Source: Tribonema minus (Eukaryota > Sar > Xanthophyceae > Tribonematales > Tribonemataceae). From it: DNA of 64,000 nt. Shown here piece after piece: positions 31,853 through 64,000 of this stretch. Position 1 is the first letter of the stretch; each line of letters opens with the position of its first letter. Made by a program: the position numbers and the translations under genes. The stretch covers positions 310,001 to 374,000 of the forward strand of contig JAFCMP010000047.1 of assembly GCA_017506865.1 (NCBI GenBank), given 5' to 3'. The notes below the pieces were generated by a model. That model was not told where the DNA came from, ran no database searches, and saw nothing but the letters and a program-made list of their open reading frames with translations.

Positions 31853-34800
31853 CTACTCAAAGTCACACGCAGGCGGGAACGTGCAGCCGGAGCGCTGAAT
31901 GATCTGACGCGCGGCCCAGTGGCCCGCCTCGACGCAGCGCGCGAGCGGCGCGCCGCGCATCAGCTGCGCCAGGAAGCCGCCCACGAAGGCGTCGCCGGCG
32001 CCGTTGGTGTCGACAAGCGCTGCCTTGTCGAGTGGCGGCACCGCAAAGGACTGGACAGTGCCGTTCTGCGCCACTAGTGTGGAGTCGCAGCCCTGTGGTG
32101 GGGGGGTGGGGGGTGAAGCGAGGGAGGGGGGAGGGGGGGCGGGGGGGGTCAGCTGTGTGGTCTCTCATAGGACACAGCAAGCGTCACGAGCGGGCATTCG
32201 CAGTCCTGCACTTAGGGGTGGTATGAGAAGCACGATGTGGGGGGGCAGGGCTCATCTTCATGAGCGTATGAAACATGTGACGCAGTCATGGTAAGTAAGA
32301 ATTGAAGTCTGTGGTGACGGGAGTTGCGTCATTGACTGCGTCACAGATCGGTGTGAGCCGAGTGTATGCAGGGGGGGGCGCTGCAAGAGCGTACTTAAAG
32401 TACATGCAAAAAAGCGCGATGTGCGCCGCATATTCGCCATCGTGGCACTCTGCCACCGCTTCCGTGGCCCCTGTGCCGCTGACTGTAGTAGTGCTCTTGC
32501 AGCAGTGCATGTGCTGAGGGGCTAATTCATGAAAAGTAAGAGGATTCAATCATCTGTAAACCAGCACATTGGCCCCTGAAGGTGTGACTGACGCAGCTCA
32601 CGGGAGCACAGTGCGGGCCACCTTTCACACGCGTACTTGACTCTGAAGCAAGAGGGGACAGAGTCGTGCGCAGCCACGCAACTGCTGCTGTCTGCAGGGA
32701 CGGGCGCCCCATACAATACACACCGCATGGACCGGCCGGACTGCGTCACTTTGCAGTAGAAGTTGAGGTGCGTGCTGTGGAGCGCTGCTGCCGCATCAAG
32801 ATATCTTGTGCACAGGGGAGAACACTGCGGCATGCATGGCGTATGTATGTACACTGACGTCACTCATGCTTTGGGCTTGGCGCAAGTGTCCGATTATGCT
32901 CCACTAACCCCCTAGCCCAATTTAAAGCTCATGTAAATCTCGTTTCCTTGGTCAGATTGAGGTGATGCTAGCAGCTGGCGCACATGCGTACTGACCAGCT
33001 GCGCTGAGCGCCAAGACTTGAGTTACAGCTGACACCACACAATGACCACTGCTTGCTCACTGCAATGCGCAGGGCTACGGTGAATACATGGCGCGCCCGC
33101 CCGCGTGCTGACGACCGTCCGCTTTAAGGGATGGGGATAGGGTTGCTTAGGGTTAACCCTAACCCTAACCTAAGCTTGCGCGACCACCGCCTGCTCAGGG
33201 CTAGCGCTAAGATCAGGTCAAGGCTCAGGGCAAGGTTGACTTAGGGTTGGCACCAGATTAGGGTTGCTTAGGAGTAGGATTATGCCAAGCTCGCACACGT
33301 GTGTGCTGTTAATCACCGCCCGCTTGCGGCTAACGCTAGGCTCAGCTTACGGCTCAAACCAAGAGTTACTCAGGGTGAGCATCAGAATAAACCGTAGGTG
33401 GCACATGCGTGATGACGACCGTGCGCGCGCGCGTGGGCTAGCGCTAGAATCAGCTTACAGCTAAAGGCAACGAATACTTGGCGTCACACAGCATCAGAAT
33501 AAACCGTACGTCGCACCTGCGTGATGACGACCGTGCGCGCGCGCGTCCCCGAGGCCTTGGGCCCCGCCGCGATCGCCAGCGCGATCGTCGCGACGTCGCT
33601 CCCCAGCCCGTGCTTGGCCCCGTACGCCGCCGCCTCGCTCTCATTTCCAAAGAGGTAGTCGGCGTACGGCAGCGCGGCGGCGAGCGCGTCGCCGAAAAAG
33701 TCCACCAGGAATGGCGCCGAGAGGTTCAGCGCGAAGACCTTGCCGCGCGCCGCCGCGTGCGTGGCAACGCTCAGCAGCGCGTCCACGCTCACCGTCAGGA
33801 AGAACCCCGCGACGTAGTAGAACTGCGCGGACTCTATCATGGCCTTGGCGGCGGGCGTCTCGAGGTGGTCCGGCTTGAAGTTGTTGGCGGCGGCGAGGTT
33901 CGCCACGAGGGAGCGCTCGCCGCCGTGCACGAGGACTGCGCAGGTGCCCGTGGGGGTGGCGTCGTCGTGCATGTAGTTGACCTGCACGCCGTCCGCCGCC
34001 GCGCACTCCTCCAGCTGCCGCCCAAAGTCGTCCTTGCCGACGGCGCCCAGGTAGCCTGCGCAGCGCGGCGCAGCGGTCGTGGAGGTTAGCTGGAGTTGAG
34101 GTTGGAACTATGGTTAGGGTTAGGTTTAAGGCCAGGGTTAGGACGTCCTTGCCGACGGCGCCCAGGTAGCCTGCGCGACCGTCGTTAGGGGGTAACAGCT
34201 AGAGTTGAGGGTGGTTAGGGTCGCCGGCGCCGAGGCAGCCTGGGCAGCGCAGCGCGGCCGTCGTTGAAGTGAGAGTTAGGATTTGATTTAGGTTGAGGTT
34301 TGGGTTTGATCGTCCTTGCCAACGGCGCCGAGATCGCCTGCGCAGCGCCGCGCGGACTGCGTTAGGGTTAGAGCTAGGGTTAGAGTTAGGGTTGGAGTTT
34401 AAGTCGTCCTTGCCGACGGCGCTGAGGTAGCCTGCGCAGCGCGGCGCGGCCGTTGTTGGGGTAAGAGTTCGTGACACGTTTTGAAGTTGAAATTATGATT
34501 AGGGTTAAATCCTTGCCAAAGGTGCCAAGGCGCGCGCAGAAGGTTTTTTATGGTTTCTTATTGCTTTCTAAAGAACTTTGGAGCATGTGAGAGTGCACTA
34601 CTAGCATTGTGTTTTCTGGACTTGCGTCAGCGAGGAGTTGTTTGTTGTTCGTCTGGTTCGAGGGCAAGCGCACCGTCTGCACTGCTGCCTGCCACCACAT
34701 GAGGTGCTGAGTTCGGTACGCCTGCAATGCGCACACGAGTTGCACCCCTACGTTGGACATGGCCACAAGTGACCGTTGCAGGCGGTGTGAGTGCAGTGTC

Positions 34801-64000: not shown

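Follow-up and report, generated by a model that had tools for sequence, protein, structure and literature searches.

Genes of the window

The window, a stretch of 64,000 nucleotides from Tribonema minus (contig JAFCMP010000047.1 of assembly GCA_017506865.1, positions 310,001 to 374,000 of the forward strand), holds three unrelated intron-bearing genes:

31853..35736, minus strand: adenosine kinase (AK) gene; coding exons 35736-35484, 34055-33517 and 32092-31853; the frame closes across GT-AG introns
45234..58006, minus strand: LARP-like gene; nine exons, with a La domain (Pfam La, E 3.5e-16); modelled from frame and GT-AG sites
58706..64000, plus strand: plastid-type coiled-coil gene; exons 58706-58841, 59008-59129, 59230-59265 (uncertain), 59984-60259, 62096-62254 and 63160-63465; runs past the end of the window; modelled from frame and GT-AG sites

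The AK coding sequence comprises three exons and 344 codons including the stop, and its second exon aligns with PDB chains of adenosine kinase (E 3.7e-57); the LARP-like coding sequence comprises 771 codons including the stop. The coiled-coil protein, for which a Pfam search returned no match, has a secretory-type start, with a signal peptide followed by GFAP, a motif that would point to an alga with a secondary red plastid. All complete introns in the three gene models are of the GT-AG type, and GC content is 0.713 in exons vs. 0.557 in introns. As a caveat, the models outside AK and the La domain are supported by frame closure and GT-AG sites; the 31 junctions considered below derive from these three models only, that is, from one locus, and only reading frame and splice sites decided their placement, although a first list of self-matches had already been seen.

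Two single-exon PPR-type genes (35841-38974 and 42165-45300) represent the same segment in two copies, with 86% identity over 3.2 kb; in Pfam, the PPR matches of the second exceed a cut-off and those of the first fall just short of it. The match between the segments extends into LARP exon 9, and at about 38.9-39.3 kb this terminal exon occurs a second time (82% over 799 bp, flank included). An open frame of 606 codons (39593-41413) adjoins one of the two segment copies; it has no Pfam match and no relative in viral contigs, and looks like part of a retroelement, judged by a zinc-knuckle-like CxxC pattern noticed by eye. A Pfam scan of the left half of the window (1-9990 and 21981-31970 on both strands, 12000-21989 on the minus strand) had a reverse transcriptase and a PAS match below threshold as its only results, and therefore gave no further intron-bearing gene as a control; the reverse transcriptase domain (RVT_1, E 1.4e-10) was found at 12000-21989 on the minus strand, where it is set in GC-rich DNA with long open frames. 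At 11836-12090, two tandem repeats of 60-63 bp lie in opposite orientations; they are related to sequence at 9962-10091, and are possibly the end of a mobile element.

Junction copies within the introns

At 15 of the 31 junctions (15 of 29 if the doubtful 36-bp exon 3 of the coiled-coil gene is omitted), the exon edge, the splice site and the adjoining intron edge recur in tandem on the intron side; eight of these junctions are donors and seven are acceptors. When templates of 100 bases centred on each junction were compared with 1200 bases on either side, the best local scores ranged from 46 to 140 at the affected junctions and from 17 to 31 at the other 16, against maxima of 32 in 930 shuffles and of 31 for templates of other junctions. 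The sequence-only reading had described such blocks beside the real junctions of all three genes, on both donor and acceptor sides, and these scores bear it out; its statement that the copies always lie on the intron side is nearly true, and at the same time nearly a matter of definition, because a copy in use would be called exon. Telomere-like and low-entropy sequence (3,731 bases) was masked in the template scan, and likewise in the array search, detection simulation and shift test described below. Scores of at least 45 were obtained at 47% of positions within 30 bp of a junction, at 2.9% of intron positions more than 500 bp away, and at 1.4% of positions outside the three genes. Base composition and chance were rejected as sources of the copies by the shuffles, by the cross-junction templates and by a comparison of GC content, in which affected and unaffected junctions did not differ (p 0.28).

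An iterated alignment, with the exon edge and 22 intron bases as query, recovered 31 copies scoring at least 40 at the 15 junctions, the maximum among 620 scores on shuffled introns being 32; 30 of these copies span the junction, one to four per affected junction, and the remaining one is exon-only and was left out of unit alignments and age comparison. Copies below 40 were left out of unit alignments, decay counts and age comparison, including matches of 34-39, which lie above the highest shuffled score of 32; the latter are further fragments at junctions already counted, plus one at the LARP exon 4 acceptor, in a C-rich stretch. A superseded first pass, in which masking hid near copies, also gave a weak match at the LARP exon 8 acceptor. 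The arrays are as follows:

33095..33546, minus strand: AK exon 2 donor; one clear copy at 33383-33434 (exon 29/30, intron 20/22, GT kept), with weaker repeats beyond
34025..34510, minus strand: AK exon 2 acceptor; four copies with junctions at 34170, 34239, 34337 and 34431, AG kept in 4/4
46794..47766, minus strand: LARP exon 8 donor; copies 47406-47484 and 46850-46906, and a short one, 47613-47634, just under the cut of 40
48936..49110, minus strand: LARP exon 7 acceptor; unit of 90 bp, one copy at 49023-49051 plus intron part
49465..49697, minus strand: LARP exon 6 donor; one gapped copy, 49465-49537
49732..50250, minus strand: LARP exon 6 acceptor; three junction-spanning copies, spacings 124, 139 and 143
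53250..54072, minus strand: LARP exon 3 donor; copies 53810-53889 and 53628-53706, fragments scoring 35-38 beyond, CCCTAA-like stretches within the units
54136..54493, minus strand: LARP exon 3 acceptor; one copy, 54315-54391
55870..56205, minus strand: LARP exon 2 donor; copies 56018-56065 and 55882-55919
56321..56830, minus strand: LARP exon 2 acceptor; copies 56516-56596 and 56743-56826
59843..59990, plus strand: weak array (39 bits) by the coiled-coil exon 4 acceptor; no exon sequence, the matches stopping at 59973, 10 bp before the junction; outside the 15 junctions
60218..60760, plus strand: coiled-coil exon 4 donor; copies 60323-60390, 60454-60516 and 60627-60689
61660..62148, plus strand: coiled-coil exon 5 acceptor; copies 61948-62006 and 61799-61856, and a weak one, 61664-61722
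62217..62612, plus strand: coiled-coil exon 5 donor; copy 62347-62394 (GC donor), telomere-like stretch 62404-62438
62694..63258, plus strand: coiled-coil exon 6 acceptor; copies 62942-63043 and 62764-62840, unit of about 196 bp
63394..63966, plus strand: coiled-coil exon 6 donor; copies 63525-63595, 63685-63766 and 63821-63894, then TTAGGG-like repeats

Past its first copy, the AK donor ladder (33095-33310) falls under the threshold for exon copies and consists of intron-intron similarity (33185-33260 with 33314-33389) and short exon-like stretches recognised by eye. In the AK acceptor array, CCCTAA-like filler begins no more than about ten bases after the exon part of the copies and is degenerate in one of them. 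The acceptor arrays of coiled-coil exons 5 and 6 merge into one component (61799-63258) at 34 bits, for which similar exon starts, compared by eye, may be the cause.

Alignments of whole units demonstrate that intron sequence was copied together with the exon edge; taken on its own, the intron part is significant (z of at least 4) in 12 of 15 arrays for one copy or more, and in 9 of 15 for the copy nearest the junction. The founder units measure 90-196 bp, about one third exon (15-99 bp, mean 48) and two thirds intron (56-137 bp, mean 89), close to the 30-90 bp of exon and 50-110 bp of intron that had been proposed from the sequence. Founder endpoints were entered by hand from the alignments and are good to a few bp, and founder lengths, exon shares, array extents and intron lengths are likewise hand-entered; the founder of the LARP exon 8 donor array is the short copy below the cut.

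The copies decay as neutral sequence while selection keeps the exon. Mismatches between copy and exon amount to 45/487, 50/490 and 77/488 at codon positions 1, 2 and 3 (9.2, 10.2 and 15.8%), where the surplus at position 3 is of the kind expected from silent change in the exon itself, and 19 of 21 indels in the exon parts of copies shift the frame. The copies, or ghosts, had been said to have intact splice sites, and this mostly holds: AG is present in 15/15 acceptor copies, GT in 11/14 and GC in 3/14 donor copies. These counts were read on copies aligned across the site and are biased toward retained sites, and some donor readings depend on the alignment, the superseded first pass having read TT and AT at two donor copies. 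Splice-site retention was rejected as a sign of selection, since the strict count of 26/29 is about that estimated for neutral decay at 9-10% per site. The gene frames close without the ghosts, so that the exon-proximal splice site is the one assigned; if the gene models are right, the spliceosome would skip the ghosts and use the exon-proximal site on both sides, as exon definition predicts. As a separate observation, 45 of 172 copy-exon differences are C>T or G>A at exon CpG sites, and changes occur at 70 of 424 CpG positions vs. 102 of 1041 others, hinting at CpG methylation.

Placement and age of the arrays

A BLAST self-comparison resolved 16 independent repeat arrays in the three genes at 38 bits. 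Fifteen of them lie within 12 bp of a junction, compared to a mean of 5.5 when the junctions were shifted circularly, and eleven span a junction by 10 bp on both sides, compared to a mean of 3.9; neither value was equalled in 3000 shifts. As for the junctions touched, 8 of the 3000 shifts attained the real count of 15 of 31, and at 31 bits the junction-touching arrays number 14 of 16. The sixteenth array, at the LARP exon 6 donor, does hold exon sequence; BLAST stops 23 bp short of the junction, and a gapped alignment spans it. The array at 59843-59973, which is without exon sequence and ends 10 bp short of its junction, is strictly an intron-only array. The two sets of fifteen therefore differ: the 15 affected junctions include the LARP exon 6 donor and lack the coiled-coil exon 4 acceptor, and for the 15 junction-near arrays the reverse holds. 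Within the window, then, tandem blocks are commoner at junctions than elsewhere, and copying across the donor and acceptor junctions of three unrelated genes exceeds what shifted junctions predict, as the sequence-only reading had maintained.

The array extents, drawn by hand, take up 6,749 of the 17,572 bases of intron. Introns that hold arrays exceed the others in length (10 vs. 5 introns, Mann-Whitney p 0.008), an exploratory and uncorrected result that does not separate cause from effect. Junctions of terminal exons are affected in 0/5 cases and internal junctions in 15/26 (Fisher p 0.043, exploratory and uncorrected), as expected if tolerance of the copies depends on definition across the exon.

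Telomere-like TTAGGG/CCCTAA stretches occur at 23 loci in the window, 21 of them in the introns of the three genes (17.6 kb) and two in the other 42 kb; twelve of the intronic loci lie inside arrays, and nine elsewhere, including introns or intron parts without arrays. These are telomere-type hexamers at internal sites, as in interstitial telomeric sequences, although TTAGGG may not be the telomere repeat of this organism. In mammals, interstitial telomeric stretches are described as scars of break repair, occasionally with duplicated flanks (PMC7215372); the stretches seen here resemble those in their position inside chromosomes and in sometimes accompanying duplicated flanks, and differ from that description in being mainly intronic and partly contained within junction arrays.

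Similarity of the copies had been proposed to fall with distance like a clock, in a serial outward ladder; the within-array comparisons do not support this, since the farther copy is the more diverged in 9 pairs and the less diverged in 11, and divergence rises monotonically with distance in only 4 of the 10 arrays with at least two copies. When all 30 copies are pooled, a weak trend of divergence with distance appears (Spearman 0.38, p 0.036). Divergence of the copies from the real junction amounts to 0-22% of sites. With regard to the suggestion that the process is ongoing, none of the copies is both complete and identical; the sole exon-identical copy, at the AK exon 2 acceptor (33/33), has a diverged intron part. 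The LARP exon 2 donor copies are evenly spaced (140, 141) and unequally diverged (0.04, 0.21), and the LARP exon 6 acceptor copies are of about equal age (0.09, 0.09, 0.07); equal spacing with unequal ages, as found in some arrays, fits better with re-amplification by unequal exchange. Changes shared between copies number 0-3 per pair, and 3-5 in the coiled-coil exon 4 donor array; such few shared changes indicate that most copies diverged independently from an exon-like ancestor. We infer that mostly one founder duplication per junction was followed by re-amplification, without a steady outward clock.

Origin of the junction arrays

The explanation that we consider rather probable is that short tandem duplications have recurred across exon-intron borders, anchored at exon edges and silenced by exon definition, with later re-amplification of some arrays. 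Duplications of 90-196 bp would arise by end-joining repair of staggered breaks, a process in which breaks with protruding ends yield tandem duplications (PMC5730883); that report, in the parts consulted, concerns nickase-made breaks in mouse cells without a link to exon borders, and what it shares with the present case is the mechanism proposed for the founder events. Conjecturally, exon edges would fix the point of breakage or stalling, for instance at the contact of exon-bound RNA-DNA hybrids or splicing complexes with intron DNA. Splicing would then pick the copy that gives the shortest exon; with the exon-proximal site in use, the duplication would be silent and the extra unit would become intron. 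Some arrays would later be re-amplified through unequal exchange, the net result being introns that lengthen from their edges. The telomere-like stretches in these introns may be counted in favor of a break-repair origin, by analogy with the mammalian scars. Several points weigh against this explanation: selection alone leaves the shortage of intron-only arrays unexplained, and the proposed exon-edge anchor is a conjecture; acceptor ghosts keep an AG upstream of the AG in use, and simple scanning would prefer the ghost AG; and one junction-linked array (59843-59973, 39 bits) holds no exon sequence. Possible, and distinctly more speculative, is a DNA process coupled to splicing or transcription that would repeatedly break and re-copy exon edges, so that introns are built outward while exon definition hides the copies; such a process would be addressed to gene structure and not to sequence.

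Equally tentative is the alternative that breaks or stalls occur in exons only, and that repair duplicates 100-200 bp, the surviving duplications being those that reach past the exon end; junctions as such would go unrecognised. It accommodates the location of one founder endpoint within the exon in 15/15 units, and predicts the lack of intron-only arrays. The shares of exon and intron should then vary freely; they are clustered instead, with an exon share of mean 0.34 and maximum 0.55 (P 6e-5 under a uniform model, from hand-entered endpoints) and an intron part never below 56 bp (P 9e-5, uniform placement). An acceptor's own need for a branch point could account for some of this clustering, yet donors show a similar lower limit (56 bp).

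Random tandem duplication within genes, with exon-internal copies purged and junction-spanning copies more readily noticed since the exon copy stays intact, is unlikely, and already disfavored in these genes. In its favor, tandem duplications occur generally, exon-internal copies are expected to be purged, and exon-ghost pairs do diverge more slowly than intron-intron pairs. Under random placement with the observed unit lengths, intron-only duplications (0.716) would arise five times as often as junction-spanning ones (0.144), and about 25-75 intron-only arrays would be expected per 15 junction arrays (uniform model, intron-only detectability from 0.33 to 1); in the three genes, no intron-only array away from junctions was found at 34 bits or more. 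The intron-only matches seen are the array at 59843-59973, which abuts an acceptor, and a match of 31.9 bits (49370-49575) beside the LARP exon 6 donor array, added when the threshold is lowered to 31 bits. Uniform placement gives P = 2e-12 to 5e-7 if founders are independent; the shift test, with 15/16 vs. 5.5 and 11/16 vs. 3.9, is far less extreme because the arrays are wide, and is relied on more than these P values. Simulated intron-only duplications of like age were detected in 87-100% of cases (150 trials per setting), which rejects detection bias as the sole cause of the junction excess, with the caveat that the real intron parts (about 70 bp, shorter than the whole unit) reach 31 bits by themselves in the nearest copy of only 5/15 arrays, and in any copy of only 8/15; older intron-only arrays may thus escape detection more often than the simulation indicates.

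That the copies are functional alternative or poison exons under selection is very unlikely; their splice dinucleotides are largely intact, and against this they carry one exon edge and not both splice sites, their exon-part indels are nearly all frame-shifting, and codon positions 1 and 2 show no suppression of mismatches. The same partial, frame-shifted copies set the arrays apart from tandem or mutually exclusive exons, where a whole exon is copied with both splice sites and an open frame. Still less probable is the model in which introns are gained when a piece of exon bearing AGGT is duplicated in tandem (Rogers 1989, Hellsten 2011, Gao and Lynch 2009, as presented in PMC3443670 and PMC4974935); the copies are tandem and junction-linked, and G is the first exon base after AG at 15/15 acceptor junctions, which speaks for this model, yet its introns should start with a copy of the downstream exon and end with a copy of the upstream exon, and no such pair occurs among arrays of at least 38 bits at offsets up to 1500, a range that covers longer introns only partly. 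The ghosts instead copy their own exon plus true intron sequence; local tandem duplication and re-used splice signals are common to both situations, but tandem genomic duplication, as presented in these sources, creates introns out of AGGT-bearing exonic pieces, whereas introns already present grow here through copies of their own borders. An assembly artefact is the least probable source, for although tandem repeats are error-prone in assembly, the copies diverge from the real junction (0-22% of sites), carry indels, and respect exon borders that an assembler cannot know.

The closest counterpart is an RdRp gene of potato, in which a tandem duplication extends across the boundary of intron and exon and includes the parent intron's 3' splice signals (PMC4974935). 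A block of intron edge, splice site and exon edge is duplicated in tandem there, as at the 15 junctions here; the potato example, as that report presents it, is a single case on the acceptor side that made a new intron, whereas the present arrays involve three genes, donors as well as acceptors and up to four copies, all of which are assigned to the existing intron. Introner elements, described from Amoebophrya (PMC7789003; see also PMC9860276), are also repeats tied to intron borders; according to these accounts they form dispersed families with short direct and inverted repeats, whereas here each array resembles its own junction only, templates of other junctions scoring no higher than 31, and no element is shared among many unrelated introns. 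Related loci were not found in the viral and genome contigs searched, and no description of such junction arrays was found among the titles and abstract openings listed from the open-licence PMC literature, for most queries a part of the matches, which is weak evidence of novelty since subscription journals lie largely outside it. Single junction-crossing duplications are already known; their restriction to junctions at high density appears to be new.

The lengthening of introns is usually ascribed to transposons and random insertion. Junction-restricted duplication would be a distinct and datable source of intron DNA, from which new exons and splice sites could be made. The arrays offer, besides, natural experiments in the choice of splice sites, since each sets similar sites in competition next to one another. 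The structure of the genes implies use of the site nearest the exon; should RNA-seq bear this out, the arrays would test exon definition directly in a protist.
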